A stretch of DNA of 64,000 nt. Source: Cryobacterium sp. (lineage in GTDB: Bacteria; Actinomycetota; Actinomycetes; Actinomycetales; Microbacteriaceae). The notes beneath the pieces were generated by a model, which was not told the DNA's origin, did not search any database, and saw nothing but the letters and a program-made list of their open reading frames with translations. The stretch is from assembly GCF_026786305.1 (NCBI RefSeq), contig NZ_JAJAYI010000086.1:28811-92810 (forward strand), read 5' to 3'. Shown here one piece after another: positions 6,087 to 63,834 of this stretch. Within the stretch, counting starts at the first letter, position 1; each line of letters opens with the position of its first letter. The translations under genes were made by a program, and so were the position numbers.

Positions 6087-8534
6087 GTGACTGATGTCAA
6101 CCTCCGCGCCGCTGGCTCGGACCTTCCTCGCCTGAGTGCCCTTCGCGTGTCCGAGCTTCAGGCTCTGGCCCTTGAACTGGGAATCTCCGGCGCTTCCAAA
6201 CTTCGTAAAGGAGAACTCGTGGACGCGATCACCACGGCTCGGTCCGGCACCGATCAGGCCAGTGCCGCTGCTCCGGTCGAGGCTGCTCCGGTCGAGGCTG
6301 CACCGGTCGAGGCTGCACCGGTCGAGGCTGCACCGATGGATAGCCTCGCCGAGGCGATCGATACCGCCCCGCGCAAGCGTGCACCGCGTCGTGCCAGCAC
6401 CAACACCGCCGCTCCCGCCAAGTCCCACGTCAATGCCGACGCCAGCACCGGATTCGGCATCATCCTGCCCGACGCACCGGCCGCCGGCTCTCGTATCGCG
6501 CGCAACGCCCGCAATGTCGTGGCGGCACCAGTGGATGGCGCGGCATCCGCTTCAGAGAGCTCCGCACCCGATACCGACAAGCCGGTTCGCCAGGCGCGCA
6601 AGCGCGTGCAGGTCGCACCCGTGCACCTCGATGACGCCGCCGCAGTGGTTGCCGACTCCGCCGATGCTCCTGCTGAGACCCTCGCCGACTCACCGGCTCC
6701 GGACGCACCGGCCCCTCGCCGCGCGTCCCGTCGCGCTTCGTCGCAGCGCACCGCCGCTGTGACTCCCTCCGAGTCGCCCGCAGGGTTTGACGGAGTGGCT
6801 GTCGAGGTTGCAGCCACCGACGCGCTCGAGGTGTCGACCGACGCACCAGCTGATGCACAGGTCGAATCAACCGACGAGTCGATCGACACAGCGGCCCCCC
6901 GCCAGGGCCGCAGCCGCAGCCGCAGCCGCGGGGGCGCTGACCGCGCGCAGGCTGCTGACCGCAACCAGGGTGAGAACGCCCCGGCCACCGATCGCCAAAA
7001 CAGCCAGAACAGCCAGAACAGTCAGAACAGTCAGAACAGCCAGAACAACCAGAACGACCGCGGTCAGAACGACCGTAACCAGAACGGCACCAACGACGAG
7101 GGCATGACGCGGGCGCAGAGCCAGCGTCAGGCTCGCAACGAGCGCAACCAGGAGCGCAATCAGGAGCGTGCCCAAGCGCAGGCCGACCGCAACCAGGGCC
7201 AGAACGACCGGGGCCAGGACCGGAACCAGGACCGTAATCAGGGTCAGAACGACCGTGGCCAGGACCGGAACCAGCTCGACGACGACCTGAACGGCCGCGG
7301 CAACCGCAACCGGTACCGTGACCGCAAGCGTCGCGGCCCGAACCAGGGCGATGACTTCGAACCCGAGGTCAACGACGACGACGTTCTCATTCCCGTCGCG
7401 GGCATCCTCGACGTGCTCGACAACTACGCCTTCGTCCGCACCTCCGGCTACTTGCCCGGTGCGAGCGACGTCTACGTCTCGCTGGGCCAGGTCAAGAAGT
7501 ACAACCTGCGCAAGGGTGACGCCGTCGTCGGCTCCATTCGCCAGCCGCACGAGGGCGACCAGTCCGGGCGTCAGAAGTACAACGCCATCGTCAAGGTTGA
7601 CTCGATCAACGGGCAGACCGTTGAGGAGGCCGCGACCCGCGTCGACTTCCACAAGCTCACGCCGTTGTACCCGACGGAACGCCTGCGCCTCGAAACCGAG
7701 CCCGGAAAGCTCACCCAGCGCATAATCGACCTTGTCGCCCCGATCGGCAAGGGGCAGCGCGGTCTGATCGTCGCACCCCCCAAGGCCGGCAAGACCATCG
7801 TCATGCAGCAGATCGCGAACGCCATCGCCACCAACAACCCCGAGGTGCACCTCATGGTCGTCCTGGTCGATGAGCGACCCGAAGAGGTCACCGACATGCA
7901 GCGCACGGTGAAGGGTGAGGTCATCGCCTCCACCTTCGACCGTCCAGCCGAAGACCACACCACGGTCGCCGAGCTCGCCATCGAGCGCGCCAAGCGTCTG
8001 GTCGAACTGGGCCACGACGTCGTCGTACTGCTCGACTCGATCACCCGCCTGGGCCGTGCCTACAACTTGGTGGCACCTGCCTCCGGTCGTATCCTCTCGG
8101 GCGGCGTCGACGCATCCGCTCTGTATCCGCCAAAGCGTTTCTTCGGTGCGGCTCGCAACATCGAGAACGGTGGCTCGCTCACCATCCTCGCCTCCGCGCT
8201 CGTGGAGACCGGCTCCAAAATGGACGAGGTCATCTTCGAGGAGTTCAAGGGCACCGGCAACATGGAACTGCGGCTGTCACGCCAGCTGGCCGACAAGCGC
8301 ATCTTCCCCGCCGTTGACGTGAACGCATCGGGTACCCGGCGCGAAGAAATGCTGATGAGCGCCGATGAAGTCAAGGTCACCTGGAAGCTGCGTCGCGCCC
8401 TCGCCGGGCTTGAGCAGCAGCAGGCGCTCGAACTCATCCTCGGCCGTCTCAAGGAGACCTCCTCGAACGTAGAATTCCTCATGCAGGTTCAGAAGTCGAT
8501 GCCGACCCTGAACGGGTCAGACAAGGACAAATAA
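6087..8534 (+). CDS. rho: Transcription termination factor Rho, with large low-complexity insertion
   Basis: Hexameric RNA-dependent ATPase that ends transcription. An N-terminal Rho_N helical domain ([13 protein letters not shown], residues 10-50) is followed by about 360 low-complexity residues: five-residue AAPVE repeats (about 60-86), an Ala/Pro/Asp-rich part, then a Gln/Asn/Arg/Asp-rich part (about 290-412) with QNS triplets repeated five times and [10 protein letters not shown] repeats. The cold-shock-like RNA-binding domain and the RecA-like motor follow: Walker A PPKAGKT (K569), Walker [12 protein letters not shown], and the GTRREE region near the C-terminus. 815 residues, roughly twice E. 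coli Rho, as in other actinobacteria. GTG start with SD GAAAGGA. The stop overlaps the prfA ATG (TAATG). Confidence 0.96.
6265..6345 (+). repeat. 15-bp tandem repeats inside rho encoding AAPVE
   Basis: About five in-frame copies of a 15-bp unit (GCTCCGGTCGAGGCT or its GCACCG variant). Because the unit is a multiple of three, copy-number change would alter protein length without breaking the frame. Confidence 0.8.
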
Positions 8535-39100: not shown

Positions 39101-39202
39101 CTGCCGCCGCCGCTGGCGCCCGGACGCGGGCGGGTCTGGGTCTTGCACCCCGACGGCGAGGTGACCCGGGCGATATGGCCGGAACCGGCCCTGAACCGGT
39201 GA
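36134..39202 (+). CDS. FtsK/SpoIIIE (EssC-like) membrane ATPase
   Basis: About 1022 residues. Two membrane helices near residues 40-75, then a basic SGRKRRR stretch, then two FtsK/SpoIIIE ATPase domains. Domain 1: Walker A GGTTGSGKSE (K423), Walker B IIVVDEFATM (D520, E521). Domain 2: Walker A GGAGSGKST (K712) with LVLLDDFDSV (D766, D767) in place of DE. This layout is that of type VII secretion EssC/EccC, lacking the N-terminal FHA pair and the third ATPase. The TTG start is uncertain; a GTG at about 36194 is an alternative. No WXG100 or other T7 secretion gene lies in this window. The last codons are repeated in a 17-bp tandem duplication. Confidence 0.88.
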   Translation: MCTDNPTVGPPRLTIWSAGRVSTVDETLALPPAPAVVPHAGFPLLATVAPLVAAGVIWMVTGSAFALIFAVLSPIIAVASMFDSKRSGRKRRRAETASHTEAVALLRTVITERQSRWRDEAWQHTPSARNIVLGRAAAARWRQTDATLVALGTGPAPSGIRLGGATAPNDHRELREWAATVTGAPIVVDLTNGLGIVGPIPLAAALARAVFVQLCFALPPTELGVSSESPTRSTDWDWVAQLPHVTSTPSRLTLVLREAAEGMQIRTESTSEPRNFERGTAEPRRGRLLLALATRLDDLPPGCGTVVRVGGPVRAQIIRSPNRAPPLDFCPELLARAEAVDFAVTLAGQARAAGLVTTNGVLPTTVPVMELLKHVTDAPASDRATAPPSLECPIGVGRDGPVRLDLVQSGPHAVVGGTTGSGKSELLTTWVAALAAIYSPSQVNFLLVDFKGGAAFQPLGRLPHCVGLITDLDSNTAARALASLGAELRSRELLLSAAGARDVTDVRLEHPLPRLIIVVDEFATMLGVFPELHALFVDIAARGRSLGVHLILCTQRPAGVVRDALLANCSLRLSLRVNNRADSQAVIGTDAAAALAPNQPGRCIVATESGEPVLCQVATTGDLDIASIAAAALSARSLRAPRRPWLDALPSMVTTADLRAADLHAVDAGGAPALGYPLGLLDEPERQRYRVFAYHPETDGHLLVVGGAGSGKSTLLHTLARVAEHRIDAQLVTANVESAWDALASISARVETGQQTHASPRLVLLDDFDSVCARWQPDHRLAAVDLLIGLLRDGPAAGVHVVVAVQRHTSVVAGLAALCQSTLLLKLPSVQDHLAAGGQSAGYNAGLPPGGGVWRTLRVQLLAPASPAPSIPPPAIAPLPAHGPLLIVSSSPAGTATRLRGVLGVPVIELAGTSGPAASALLVSGEAGQTDAAGRLAAGQLIVVGDAETWQVHWTLLARLRGATASGHASLVFDRCSLSDFRLLSHRRELPPPLAPGRGRVWVLHPDGEVTRAIWPEPALNR

Positions 39203-39221
39203 CGGCCCTGAACCGGTGACG
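39186..39221. repeat. 17-bp tandem duplication spanning the end of the FtsK/EssC-like gene
   Basis: GCCCTGAACCGGTGACG at 39188-39204 is repeated exactly at 39205-39221, with two further matching bases at the left. The first copy holds the stop TGA; the second directly abuts the alanine dehydrogenase stop codon on the other strand. Confidence 0.9.
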
Positions 39222-47082: not shown

Positions 47083-47102
47083 GGTGCTTCAACTGTACCT
47101 AT

Positions 47103-47162
47103 CCTTACTGTGTCGATCCATTCCTTACTGTGTCGATCCATTCCTAACTGTGTCGATCCATC
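47103..47162. repeat. Three 20-bp direct repeats between gabT and osmC
   Basis: Units at 47103-47122 and 47123-47142 are identical (CCTTACTGTGTCGATCCATT); 47143-47162 differs at two positions (CCTAACTG... and final C). Each holds TGTCGA, which on the minus strand reads TCGACA, close to a -35 box. They lie at about -20 to -80 from the gabT start and look like iterated regulator-binding sites or repeated promoter parts. Confidence 0.9.
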
Positions 47163-47220: not shown

Positions 47221-47703
47221 ATGATCGGCGAACACAATTACGCGGTGCAGATCGAATGGACCGGCAATCGCGGAACCGGAACGAGCAACTATCGCGAGTA
47301 CGGCCGGGAGCACACGATCACGCCGACCGGGAGGGGTGCAGCTGAGAAAGCAGTCATCCAAGCCTCGGCCGACCCGACTTTTCACGGCAACGCCGAACGG
47401 TGGAATCCCGAGGAGCTGCTGCTGGCCGCCCTCAGTCAGTGCCACATGCTGTCCTACCTGCACGTCGCCGTGCGCCATGGCATCGTCGTCACGGCCTATG
47501 CGGATGCCGCGGCTGGCGTCATGAAACAACATTCGGGCGGCGGTGGCCGCTTCGTCTCGGTTACCATGCACCCCCGGGTCACCATCTCCGACCCGAACCA
47601 GGTGGAGCTCGCGCAGTCACTGCACGCCGAGGCAGCTCGTGAGTGTTTCATCGGAGCGTCGATGAACTTTCCGGTCGGACACGAACCGGTCACCACCATC
47701 TAA
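47221..47703 (+). CDS. OsmC/Ohr family protein
   Basis: 160 residues with the two redox cysteines of the family in LSQCHMLSYLH and ARECFIGASMNFPV; the latter is typical of the YhfA/OsmC-like branch. These proteins reduce organic hydroperoxides or act as stress-linked thiol peroxidases. SD GGGGGAG at 47212-47218 supports ATG 47221. Divergent from gabT and sharing its repeat-bearing upstream region. Confidence 0.88.
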   Translation: MIGEHNYAVQIEWTGNRGTGTSNYREYGREHTITPTGRGAAEKAVIQASADPTFHGNAERWNPEELLLAALSQCHMLSYLHVAVRHGIVVTAYADAAAGVMKQHSGGGGRFVSVTMHPRVTISDPNQVELAQSLHAEAARECFIGASMNFPVGHEPVTTI

Positions 47704-58915: not shown

Positions 58916-60100
58916 CTAGCGCGAGAGCAGCAGTGCTTCGCCCTGGCCGCCCCCGCCACACAGGGCGACCGCGGCTTTTCCGCTGCCGCGGCGCGCGAGT
59001 TCGAGCGCTGCGTGCAGCGCAACGCGACCGCCGCTAGAGCCGATCGGGTGACCGATGGCGATGCCGCCACCGTGGATGTTGACCACGTCACTGGTCACGC
59101 CGAGATCCTTCGACGACTGTGCGACGACTGCCGCAAAGGCCTCGTTGATCTCGATCAGGTCGAGGTCACTGGCCGACCAGCCCTGACGTGCGAGGGCGTG
59201 AGCGATGGCATTCGACGGCTGCGAGTGCAGGGAATTGTCTGGCCCGGCGACCTGGCCGGAGGCTTCGATCACGGCGAGCCAGCTGAGCCCGTGCTTCTCG
59301 GCCCAGGCGCGGCTGGTGACCACGACGGCGCTTGCGCCGTCGCTGAGCGGGGCAGCGTTGCCGGCCGTGATCGCGCCGGCGGGGTCGAACGCCGGCCGCA
59401 GCTTGCCCAGCGTCGCCGAGGTACTGTCGGGGCGCACGCCCTCGTCGGTTGAGATGAGCAGCGGCTCGCCTCGACGCTGCTGCCCGCTCAGCGGGGTGAT
59501 CTCGTCCTCGAACACGCCGGCAGCCTCGGCAGCCGCGGCCCGCTGGTGGGACGCGGCCGCGATCTCGTCCTGCTCGAGGCGGCTGAGCCCGAGCGAGGCG
59601 ATCGACTTCTCGGTCGAGAGCCCCATCGAGAGGCCATCGAAGGCATCTGACAAACCGTCATGCGCGGCGTGGTCGAGCGCCGACACGGTGCCGTAGGCCC
59701 AGCCCTGGCGGGAACCGGGCAGCAGGTGCGGCGCCCGCGACATGGACTCCTGCCCACCGGCGACAACGACATCCGCTTCACCGAGGCGCACCAGGCGGGC
59801 GGCGTCGATGACCGCGGCGAGACCCGAGAGGCAGACCTTGTTGAGGGTCATTGCCGGTACGTTCCACGGGATGCCTGCGGCCACGCCGGCCTGCCGGGCC
59901 GGGTTCTGCCCGCAACCGGCCTGCAAGACCTGCCCCATCAGAACGAAGTCGACCTGTTCGGGCGCGACGTGGGCCCGCGCGAGCGCCCCGGCGATAGCTG
60001 CCGCCCCGAGCTCAACGGCGGTGAGGCTCGCGAGCTGTCCGTTCACGCGACCCTGCGGGGTGCGTGAACCGGCCAAGATTACGACGTCGATTTCGGTCAT
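58916..60100 (-). CDS. Acetyl-CoA C-acetyltransferase (thiolase)
   Basis: 394 residues. Acyl-accepting Cys in LNKVCLSGLAAV, GGQESMSRAPH, NEAFAAV, GGGIAIGHPIGSSG and the second catalytic Cys in ALCGGGGQG are intact. Condenses or cleaves acetoacetyl-CoA, for fatty-acid breakdown or polyhydroxybutyrate-type routes; the direction cannot be told. GGAG lies just before the ATG. Stands alone, with decayed DNA downstream and a 344-bp region upstream. Confidence 0.94.
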   Translation of the reverse strand: MTEIDVVILAGSRTPQGRVNGQLASLTAVELGAAAIAGALARAHVAPEQVDFVLMGQVLQAGCGQNPARQAGVAAGIPWNVPAMTLNKVCLSGLAAVIDAARLVRLGEADVVVAGGQESMSRAPHLLPGSRQGWAYGTVSALDHAAHDGLSDAFDGLSMGLSTEKSIASLGLSRLEQDEIAAASHQRAAAAEAAGVFEDEITPLSGQQRRGEPLLISTDEGVRPDSTSATLGKLRPAFDPAGAITAGNAAPLSDGASAVVVTSRAWAEKHGLSWLAVIEASGQVAGPDNSLHSQPSNAIAHALARQGWSASDLDLIEINEAFAAVVAQSSKDLGVTSDVVNIHGGGIAIGHPIGSSGGRVALHAALELARRGSGKAAVALCGGGGQGEALLLSR

Positions 60101-60444
60101 CGGGACTCCTTTGTCAATTTTTTGAGCCGGCGTTCACCGAGAACGCGCCCTGAACCAGCTTGTCACTGCTGGCTGTGTTTTTTTCATCGGGGGCGGCTAC
60201 CCCTTGACAGTACCGACAAAACCAAAGAGATTTCCTATACCTGAAATCAGGCCCACGTTTCTGTTCACTGGTTCGGCAGCAGCCCAGCTCCTCGTTCACG
60301 AGGGGTAGATGCCGGGCCGCGAGTGGCGGGGCAGGCCGGCGACTTCAGCTGGCTCATCTCGCCGGGGCATCATCGTCGCTCGGGTGTGCAGGCGGCGGCA
60401 TTCGCTGTGGTGGTGGTGGGCGGGACGATGAGAAACGCGGGGCA
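60101..60444. promoter_or_regulatory. 344-bp divergent region between thiolase and double hydrolase
   Basis: AT-richer than the surroundings. Features: an eight-base T-run near 60176-60183 after CCAGC...GCTGG (60159-60176 region), TTGACA at 60204-60209, and a dyad CCTGA-AA-TCAGG at 60240-60251, a possible operator. No full promoter with standard spacing is clear on either strand, and no gene is seen. Confidence 0.35.
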
Positions 60445-62541
60445 ATGACTTATCGGATTACGACCGGCAGCAGCCGAGGCGGCACTAACGACTACCGTGC
60501 GTTTCAGGCGCCGATCTCGGGCGGCAGCCTGCATGGTGGGCAGTGGCGTGCCGGCGAAACCATTGGCACGCCCGTACTGGCCGTTCACGGCATCACCGCC
60601 TCGCACCTGACCTGGCCGTGGCTGGCCGAGCAGCTGCCCGGCACCCGGGTGATCGCGCCCGATCTGCGCGGGCGCGCCCGCAGCAACCACCTGCCGGGGC
60701 CGTACGGTCTGCGCCAGCATGCCGATGACCTGGCGGCAGTGCTGGACTTTCTTGAGGTTGATCGGGCCATCGTGGTCGGGCATTCGATGGGCGCGTTCGT
60801 CGCCGTGTGGCTCGCCCACCTGCACCCCGATCGGGTTCAGTCCCTCGTGCTCGTCGACGGGGGCCTGCCGATTCTGCGTGAAGACGGCATTGACCCGCTT
60901 CTCATGCTCGGCCCGGCCGCCGAGCGTCTGTCCCGAACGTTTGCGAGCCGCGATGCCTATGCCGAGTTCTGGCGGGCGCACCCGGCTTTTGCGACGGACT
61001 GGTCTGAGCGTGTCGGCACGTTCGCGAACTACGACCTCGACGGCACGGCGCCGAATCTGCACCCCTCCGCCCGGCTGGAGGCCGTCGCCGAGAACGTCAC
61101 GCAGCTGAACGGGTCTGACGGGTATGCGGAGGCCCTGGCGGAACTGTGTCTGCCGATGGATTTTCTGCGTGCACCGCGGGGTCTGCTGAACGAGTCGACC
61201 GCCCTCTACGACCGGGCCGCTGTCGATGCCGCAATCGAGCGGATGCCAGCCCTCCGCCGGCACGAGGTCGACGGCGTCAACCACTACACGATCGTGATGA
61301 GCGACCGTGGAGCCGGGCACGTCGCATCCGTCATCACTGACCAGCTCGACCAACGAACAACGACCAGCTCGACCAACGAACAACGACCAGCTCGACCAAC
61401 GATAAATCCCGAGAAGTCAGAGAGGACTTCGCTCATGATGAACACCGTTTTCGACGGAATCACCCAGCACACAATCAGCACCGCTCGGCTCCAGGCCGGC
61501 GTGCTCGAACGACCGGCCACCAACCCGTCCGACACGGTCGTGTTCATTCACGGCAACGTGTCGTCGTCGTTGTTCTGGCAGCCGCTGATGCTGGCCCTGC
61601 CGCGCACCATACGCGCCCTGGCGATCGACCTGCGCGGCTTCGGAACGAGCGAGACGCTGCCGGTCGATGCCAGACGCGGCCTCGGTGACTTCGCCGACGA
61701 TGTCGCATCGGTGCTGACCGAGCTCGGTATTGACCGGGCACATTTCGTTGGCTGGAGCATGGGCGGGGGAGTGCTGATGCAGTTTCTGCTCGACCACCCG
61801 GCACAGGTTTCAACCGTGACCCTCGTGGCACCGGTCTCGCCGTACGGTTTCGGTGGCACCCGCGGAGCCGAGGGTGTGCGGCTCACCCCCGACGATGCCG
61901 GGGCCGGCGCCGGTGGCGCCAACCCGGACTTCATTGCCCGGCTCGCCTCGGGCGACCGCACGGCCGACGCGCAGACCTGCCCGCGCACCGTTTACCAGAC
62001 CGCCTACGTCAAGCCGCCGTTCAGTTCAGAGTTCGACGACGTGTGGGTTGAATCGATGCTCACCACCGCGACCGGCCCCGGAAGCTACCCGGGCGATGCA
62101 TCCGCTTCGGCAAACTGGCCCGGTTTCGCCCCGGGCACGAACGGCGTGCTCAACACAATGGTGCCGCGTTACTTCAACACCAGTGCCATCGTCGACCTCG
62201 CTGACAAGCCACCCATTCTGTGGGTGCATGGCAGCGACGATGTGATCGTGTCTGACACGTCGTTGTTCGACCTGAACTTCCTCGGGCAGCTCGGCGTGAT
62301 TCCGGGCTGGCCCGGGCTCGACGCGGCACCGCCGCAGCCGATGATCCAGCAGACTCGGGCCGTGCTGGCCGCCTACGAGCAGGGCGGCGGCGATACGACC
62401 GAGCTTGAACTGGTCGACTGTGGACACTCGCCGCACCTGGAGCACCCGGCCGCATTCCTGGAGGCCCTCCTCGCCCAATTCGACCGTGCAGTCGAGCAGT
62501 CGGCGACGCAGCCGATCTCGCCCGACCAGATCACGCTGTAG
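60445..62541 (+). CDS. Fused tandem alpha/beta hydrolases
   Basis: 698 residues holding two complete alpha/beta hydrolases. Domain 1 (about 20-300): nucleophile elbow VVGHSMGAF (S114), DLRGRARS, late His in VNHYTIV. Domain 2 (about 331-698): FIHGNVSSSLFW, nucleophile FVGWSMGGG (S438), His in CGHSPHLEHP; its own ATGs lie at 61435 and 61438 with GAGAGG at 61420-61425. The join (residues 299-330) is encoded by a 23-bp unit repeated almost three times. With one unit, domain 1 would stop at 304 residues on TAA 61403-61405. Substrates unknown. The two were probably adjacent genes; fusion may be real, variable between cells, or an assembly artefact. Confidence 0.85.
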   Translation: MTYRITTGSSRGGTNDYRAFQAPISGGSLHGGQWRAGETIGTPVLAVHGITASHLTWPWLAEQLPGTRVIAPDLRGRARSNHLPGPYGLRQHADDLAAVLDFLEVDRAIVVGHSMGAFVAVWLAHLHPDRVQSLVLVDGGLPILREDGIDPLLMLGPAAERLSRTFASRDAYAEFWRAHPAFATDWSERVGTFANYDLDGTAPNLHPSARLEAVAENVTQLNGSDGYAEALAELCLPMDFLRAPRGLLNESTALYDRAAVDAAIERMPALRRHEVDGVNHYTIVMSDRGAGHVASVITDQLDQRTTTSSTNEQRPARPTINPEKSERTSLMMNTVFDGITQHTISTARLQAGVLERPATNPSDTVVFIHGNVSSSLFWQPLMLALPRTIRALAIDLRGFGTSETLPVDARRGLGDFADDVASVLTELGIDRAHFVGWSMGGGVLMQFLLDHPAQVSTVTLVAPVSPYGFGGTRGAEGVRLTPDDAGAGAGGANPDFIARLASGDRTADAQTCPRTVYQTAYVKPPFSSEFDDVWVESMLTTATGPGSYPGDASASANWPGFAPGTNGVLNTMVPRYFNTSAIVDLADKPPILWVHGSDDVIVSDTSLFDLNFLGQLGVIPGWPGLDAAPPQPMIQQTRAVLAAYEQGGGDTTELELVDCGHSPHLEHPAAFLEALLAQFDRAVEQSATQPISPDQITL
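61339..61402 (+). repeat. 23-bp tandem repeat joining two hydrolases
   Basis: Copies at 61339-61361 and 61362-61384 are identical, followed by 18 bp of a third (61385-61402). The unit begins GACCAGCTCGACCAACGA. Because 23 is not a multiple of three, each copy shifts the reading frame. Confidence 0.95.
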
Positions 62542-62611: not shown

Positions 62612-63766
62612 GTGGCTGCTATCAACTTGGGGATGCCTAAAGTACCTGAGGTACTCGCTCCCAGACGTAAATCCCGTCAGATCAAGGTCGGAAAGGTCCT
62701 GGTCGGTGGCGATGCTCAGGTGAGCGTGCAATCGATGACGACTACTCCGACGACAAACATCAACGCGACGCTTCAGCAGATCGCCGAACTCACGGCGACC
62801 GGCTGCGACATCGTGCGCGTGGCGGTGCCCACGCGTGACGACGCTGAGGCCCTGTCGATCATTGCCAAGAAGAGTCAGATTCCGGTCATCGCGGACATCC
62901 ACTTCCAGCCGAACTATGTGTTCGCGGCGATCGACGCCGGCTGCGCCGCCGTGCGTGTGAACCCCGGCAACATTCGTAAGTTTGACGACCAGGTTGGCAA
63001 GATCGCCGCTGCGGCGAAGGCCGCTGGCGTGAGTCTGCGCATCGGCGTGAATGCCGGTTCGCTCGAGCCGAGCCTCATGCAGAAATATGGCAAGGCCACC
63101 CCCGAAGCGCTCGTCGAGAGCGCCGTCTGGGAGGCGAGCCTGTTCGAAGAGCACGATTTTCACGACTTCAAGATCTCGGTCAAGCACAACGACCCGGTGA
63201 TTATGGTCAAGGCCTACCGTCTGCTCGCCGAACGCGGTGACTGGCCGTTGCACCTCGGTGTGACCGAGGCCGGACCGAGCTTTCAGGGCACTATCAAGAG
63301 CGCGACCGCGTTCGGCATTCTGCTCGGTGAGGGCATCGGTGACACCATTCGGGTGTCACTGAGCGCCCCGCCGGTCGAGGAGATCAAGGTGGGCCTGCAG
63401 ATTCTGCAGTCGCTCAACCTGCGCGAACGCAAGCTTGAGATCGTCTCGTGCCCGAGCTGCGGCCGGGCCCAAGTGGATGTCTACAAGCTCGCCAATGATG
63501 TCACCGACGGGCTCGCGGGTATGACCGTGCCGTTGCGCGTCGCCGTCATGGGCTGCGTCGTCAACGGACCGGGCGAGGCCCGTGAGGCCGACCTCGGTGT
63601 CGCGAGCGGCAACGGCAGGGGCCAGATCTTCGTGCGCGGCGAGGTCATCAAGACCGTGCCCGAGTCCGAGATCGTGGCCACCCTCATCGAAGAGGCCAAC
63701 CGCCTCGCGGCCGAGATGCCAGCCGCAGCCCTCGGTAGCCCCACGGTCTCTGTCGGCGCGAAGTAG
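62612..63766 (+). CDS. ispG: 4-hydroxy-3-methylbut-2-enyl-diphosphate synthase
   Basis: Penultimate MEP-pathway enzyme, carrying a [4Fe-4S] cluster. [11 protein letters not shown] at the N-terminal TIM barrel, [24 protein letters not shown], and C-terminal cluster ligands CPSC (C280, C283), C315 in [10 protein letters not shown] and the following Glu. 384 residues, the short actinobacterial form without a middle insert. GTG start 6 nt after a -10, no SD. Works in the same pathway as dxr at 51.7 kb. Confidence 0.96.
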
Positions 63767-63801: not shown

Positions 63802-63834
63802 CTGTTAGGTGCGCCAGGCTGTTAGGTGCGCCAG
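63802..63834. repeat. 17-bp tandem duplication over an HNH-gene stop codon
   Basis: CTGTTAGGTGCGCCAGG at 63802-63818 is repeated at 63819-63834 (16 of 17 bases). Each copy holds the stop codon (TTA on this strand) of the minus-strand gene. Confidence 0.9.

Follow-up and report, generated by a model that had tools for sequence, protein, structure and literature searches.

A 23-bp tandem repeat places two neighbouring hydrolase genes of a Cryobacterium genome in one reading frame

Genetic switches built from repeats are usually reported to turn genes on or off. For HCAN_0660/HCAN_0661 of Helicobacter canadensis, the production of separate or joint proteins depending on repeat length has been proposed, and homopolymer tracts of G10 to G14 are given in Table 2 of the same paper (PMC2823697). 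Microsatellite-driven fusion of open reading frames has been described in the Mycobacterium tuberculosis complex, including gmhA-gmhB with a T4/T5 indel between genomes (PMC1501019). Palindromic repeats of the REP/BIME and RPE types, some of them lying inside open reading frames or supplying stop codons, are covered in PMC3733652. The available part of a paper on frame transitions (PMC3711429) contains nothing specific to the case described here.

In the window, the whole 64-kb stretch of DNA that was analysed, two α/β-hydrolase genes, A and B, are joined into one reading frame by a tandem repeat (Table 1). The locus resembles the H. canadensis pair (PMC2823697), where a repeat closing one gene could, by a change in length, join it to the next. 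It resembles gmhA-gmhB (PMC1501019) in that an indel of a repeat unit puts the first gene in the frame of the second to give one ORF, and in the comparison of genomes that have the change with genomes that lack it. In contrast to the poly-G tracts of the former, with length ranges seen in reads, and to the T4 to T5 homopolymer of the latter, the repeat described here is a 23-bp unit in 2.78 copies in one assembly of one strain. Unlike in H. canadensis (PMC2823697), two full enzyme domains are joined. Since fusion by repeat length has been proposed or reported in both papers, the phenomenon is of a known kind and appears here in a new form. The claim of a preliminary description of this DNA, that switching of fusion would be unusual, holds in comparison with the usual on/off switches, but a precedent has been proposed in HCAN_0660/HCAN_0661 (PMC2823697). 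As with the REP/BIME and RPE elements of PMC3733652, the array lies at a gene end and can be translated, and the short sequences to which it is related are high in copy number and often tandemly reiterated; unlike them, it occurs in a genus in which no Y1 transposase was found, and the window array shows neither an inverted partner nor folding above that of shuffled sequences. We favour, with a probability of about 0.6, the reading that a recent local amplification of a dispersed-repeat fragment fused two co-operonic hydrolases in one lineage.

Table 1. Features of the A-B locus and its neighbours, in positions of the window
Feature	Position	Strand	Basis
Open reading frame of 698 codons: hydrolase A, repeat-encoded linker and hydrolase B	60445..62541	+	ORF, domain search
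Hydrolase A domain, α/β hydrolase	60445..61338	+	domain search, alignment, structure model
Tandem array, unit GACCAGCTCGACCAACGAACAAC, 2.78 perfect copies	61339..61402	+	sequence, Tandem Repeats Finder
Copies of the array, the last an 18-base remnant	61339-61361, 61362-61384, 61385-61402
Linker-coding stretch, repeat and spacer, read through in frame	61339..61434	+	junction comparison, copy-number simulation
TAA that would stop hydrolase A at 0.78, 3.78 ... copies; out of frame at 2.78	61403..61405	+
Shine-Dalgarno region of hydrolase B, CCCGAGAAGTCAGAGAGGACTTC	61408..61430	+	relatives' junctions
Hydrolase B, own start ATG 61435 or 61438	61438..62541	+	domain search, nearest structure, alignment
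ispG (GcpE), which follows the A-B pair here and in 11 genus relatives	62612..63766	+
Acetyl-CoA acyltransferase (thiolase), divergent neighbour, at the place of TetR in ten genus relatives	58916..60100	-

A 23-bp repeat of about 2.8 copies had been read from the letters of the DNA, and Tandem Repeats Finder returned the same array with period 23, 2.8 copies, 100% match and a score of 128. The array is open in all three frames of the plus strand. Among perfect tandem runs of period 4-60 in the window it ranks first in length, with 41 bases past one period against 33 for the next, and is therefore not due to chance; a second related site in the genome likewise rules out a chance repeat. The 698-aa frame contains two α/β-hydrolase domains, PF00561 and PF12697 each matching two stretches. 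Thus, the repeat and the fused frame are established, and the displacement of the stop codon to give a 698-residue double enzyme, as proposed earlier, is real in the assembly.

Simulation of other copy numbers yielded three products in turn. With 0.78 copies, that is, the 18-base remnant alone, A is a protein of 304 aa ending in DQLDQR-TAA, and with 1.78 copies an out-of-frame product of 406 aa ends 254 nt past the ATG at 61435. The 698-aa fusion is obtained with 2.78 copies, the state of the assembly, and the cycle of three states recurs with 3.78, 4.78 and 5.78 copies. Because the unit length of 23 is not divisible by 3 and three frames are open, every added copy changes the state with a period of 3, and copy number at this site alters the reading frame, a property of phase-variable loci. 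Two further claims of the preliminary description agree with this arithmetic: one unit would give DQLDQR, a TAA and a protein of 304 residues, where 'one unit' corresponds to the 18-base remnant of 0.78 copies, and copy number modulo 3 would specify three states.

Judged from its sequence and predicted structure, A is a general α/β hydrolase. Its residues Ser114 and His280 are invariant in 14 sequences, and a structure search with the A model retrieved general α/β hydrolases only. In this model, the best of five (pLDDT 81.2, against 53.7 to 70.3 for the other four), the last predicted helix comprises residues 287-297. The repeat starts at residue 299, after this final helix, so the linker would hang off a complete domain. 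In B, Ser438, Asp599 and His661 (fused-frame numbering) are invariant in 14 sequences, and the nearest solved sequence is the poly(3-hydroxybutyrate) depolymerase 8ynv (E 4e-19). Against the intracellular PHB depolymerase family NF050089, B alone scored 111.8 bits, below the curated cut-off of 300 bits, and its matches to macrolide esterase NCBIfam models were weak and far below the cut-offs. Comparison with the nearest relative, G023, gave dN/dS values of about 0.22 for A (dN 0.146, dS 0.652) and 0.19 for B (dN 0.115, dS 0.617).

The start signals of B are conserved. The sequence ATGATG is present at 61435-61440 and the Shine-Dalgarno-like GAGAGGAC at 61420-61427, and both, as had been suggested for the second hydrolase, agree with the gene start in relatives. 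GAGAGGAC was found ahead of the B start in 10 of the 13 relatives measured, all ten from the genus, and the whole stretch CCCGAGAAGTCAGAGAGGACTTC is identical in G023. This conservation of the Shine-Dalgarno sequence and start indicates that B retains its own start signal despite the fusion. An eleventh genus relative, L083 (G025), which lies outside the 13 measured, has no GAGAGGAC site. Its B is missing about 46 N-terminal residues and stands in the frame of A, from which a single TAA divides it; this is another type of altered junction within the genus.

A and B are separate at all 17 other junctions that were read (14/14 and 3/3). Separate proteins, previously suggested as the alternative state, are thus the state found in relatives, and the opposite case raised at the same time, a fusion in all relatives, is not what these junctions show. 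The array is absent from the same junctions (14/14 and 3/3), and its preservation in related species, a supporting rather than strictly defining mark of phase variation, was not seen among them. The two genes overlap as ATGA in 8 of 13 measured relatives and lie 14 to 53 nt apart in the remaining ones. A search of 398 genomes of the host's family gave a strong match (E ≤ 1e-60) in 88, and among the matches listed only this genome, G000, had a stop-free match over both domains. Among 24 adjacent A/B pairs hand-picked from the matches listed in this search, none was in a common frame and 22 had an offset of 2, which is the offset of the window at 0.78 copies. An old, shared fusion is not supported, given the separate junctions of relatives and the lack of another stop-free match among the matches listed. 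G281, G359 and G385 were rejected as further fusions: each aligns over both domains in one frame, but one or more stops lie between A and B. The sample consists of this one assembly and one genome per species in the comparison; loci L074-L081, whose match scores are identical to those of L005-L012, were taken as the same species and not recounted. For L005 and L007 no A start codon was located; their A rows start ahead of or at the first matched position, and the L007 row went into A2 in this form.

The gene order TetR-BDH-A-scoA-scoB-B was identified in 8 of 61 loci (L013, L016-L019, L021, L049 and L059) by similarity to L013, in which NCBIfam models recognize a 3-hydroxybutyrate dehydrogenase and both subunits of a 3-oxoacid CoA-transferase. 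The titles of these eight loci refer to Salinibacterium, Agromyces, Micrococcales or Microbacteriaceae, and Cryobacterium sp. BB307 (L049). This operon order, together with 8ynv as the nearest solved sequence to B, suggests that the A-B pair probably serves the use of 3-hydroxybutyrate esters or oligomers. In ten genus relatives A is preceded by a TetR gene, which is absent here from positions 60101-60444, with the divergent thiolase present instead; TetR matches elsewhere in the same genome are weak (best E 6e-9, 33% identity).

The relation of the 23-bp unit to a dispersed repeat family is also established. Within this genome the unit has a counterpart on another contig (C61:39-61), with 22 of 23 bases matching, compared with 0 for a reversed-pattern control, and a 7-bp tandem tail follows this site. 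At a third site, in C54, 20 of 23 bases match the unit, 18 of them contiguous, and sites within 3 mismatches of the unit were found in five other genomes of the genus (G001, G018, G036, G048 and G056). The C61 site is a member of a dispersed family with the core TCTCGACAAGCTCGACCA, for which G000 has 43 sites when up to 2 mismatches are allowed, versus 3 for the reversed pattern. A 20-base version of the core is present in 50 of 57 genus genomes, with 0 to 531 sites (531 in G005, none in seven others), and the core with 1 mismatch in 37 of 150 genomes of the host's family. Tandem runs were analysed at the 30 of the 43 sites with loci, merged into 25 clusters: 9 of the 25 contain such runs, compared with 2 of 134 control points (Fisher p 6e-7), with neighbouring family copies contributing to the count. 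An inverted partner within 90 bp was observed for 13 of 30 family sites versus 3 of 144 controls. None of the six reading frames of the core contains a stop codon, so where it inserts close to the end of a gene, the gene tends to be lengthened and not cut short.

Agreement between the window unit and the family consensus and copies is limited to about 17 bases and does not span the entire core; with up to 3 mismatches allowed, the 18-base core has no site within the window. Because the window array also has no inverted partner, the unit may be a fragment of the family or a partly independent sequence. The array stretch folds no better than shuffled sequences (z 0.35; 122 of 200 shuffles equal or better), and a role as RNA hairpin or terminator was rejected on this ground. 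An association with a Y1 (RAYT) transposase is reported for GTAG, not CGTC, REP families. No Y1 transposase (PF01797) was detected in the 57 genus genomes, while the control was found in 5 of 14, and a RAYT-driven REP was rejected on these grounds. Inspection by eye revealed no GTAG or CGTC tag in the core GGTCTCGACAAGCTCGACCAACGA, which is the part inspected. A search of the literature on repeat families and REP elements gave no description of this family, and short core strings appeared only in a paper with an unrelated title.

Normally, A and B of a probable 3-hydroxybutyrate-catabolism operon would be translated separately but in close coupling. The 3' end of A in this lineage contains a fragment related to the dispersed REP-like repeat, which would have been amplified in tandem to 2.78 copies, probably by replication slippage. 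The 46 extra bases shift A past its stop and into the frame of B. Ribosomes translating A would then produce the 698-aa double enzyme, and the retained Shine-Dalgarno sequence and start of B should yield free B as well. The fusion begins past the last predicted helix of A and leaves both domains whole, which suggests that it is probably near-neutral and tolerated. It seems fairly likely that the fusion arose recently, in this lineage alone, as a by-product of repeat amplification. The locus would be a clear example of two co-translated genes being fused in a single step by a short dispersed repeat.

A copy number misjudged in assembly, with the true molecule carrying 0.78 or other copies and the genes separate, would also account for the fused frame, and we consider it unlikely but worth weighing. 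The copy number could be wrong in this draft of 109 contigs (3.06 Mb, contamination estimate 3.52%), another contig has its first bases within a related repeat (C61:1-90), which may mean that sequences of this type are hard to assemble, and the genes are separate at the 17 other junctions read. However, the array of 64 bp is shorter than a common read length and lies between unique flanks on both sides in one contig, and other tandem repeats of 17-20 bp (97-100% match) are found in the same window. Perfect extra copies are seldom invented by assemblers, which also counts against such an error.

We are more doubtful of a contingency fusion switch as envisaged in the preliminary description, in which copy number, varied by slippage and maintained by selection, would let cells alternate between the separate, fused and out-of-frame states. 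The 23-base unit with its period-3 cycle in three open frames, the frequency of tandem runs at family sites and the presence of B's own start in every state would all suit such a switch, but the single assembly showed no copy-number variant, the array is absent from all 17 relatives' junctions read, and the five genomes with near-unit sites (G001, G018, G036, G048 and G056) have no strong A-B match among the matches listed. Moreover, the products are metabolic enzymes rather than surface proteins, and the copies number just 2.78; three copies of a 23-mer are far from the long homopolymer tracts, G10 to G14, in PMC2823697. Since A remains a full domain whichever state applies, the differences between the states may be small. 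Finally, the dispersed family with tandem runs at other sites explains the array without a switching function, and the switch is therefore not supported. If copy number did vary in cells, this would be a fusion switch combining two full enzyme domains with a repeat unit of 23 bp, and would differ from the usually reported on/off switches.

A broader version, in which the REP-like repeat, free of stops in every frame and liable to tandem slippage, serves as a mobile, variable linker that becomes a copy-number switch between separate and fused enzymes wherever it lies between co-translated genes, appears slightly less credible still; if true, it would act here on two hydrolases of ketone-body or polyhydroxybutyrate use. 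Least likely is a fixed, selected bifunctional fusion channelling successive steps of 3-hydroxybutyrate ester breakdown: both domains look intact, dN/dS against G023 (~0.22 for A, 0.19 for B) indicates purifying selection on both genes and the operon context is shared in other genera, but these values span the whole time since the split from G023, probably mostly before the fusion, no other searched genome is fused among the matches listed, and B retains its separate start signal.

A tRNA scan of the 64-kb window found none. Several other short tandem repeats are present in the window. A 20-bp repeat, TCCTTACTGTGTCGATCCAT, occurs in 3 copies (97% match) at 47102-47161, with an ATG following some 60 bp downstream at 47221, and perhaps represents operator sites. 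Perfect 17-bp repeats are located at 39186-39221 (2.1 copies, with a TGA in each unit) and right behind ispG at 63802-63834 (1.9 copies). A cluster of 9-, 12-, 21- and 45-bp repeats extends over 6994-7274, where some units, inspected by eye, read QNS or DRNQ in one frame.
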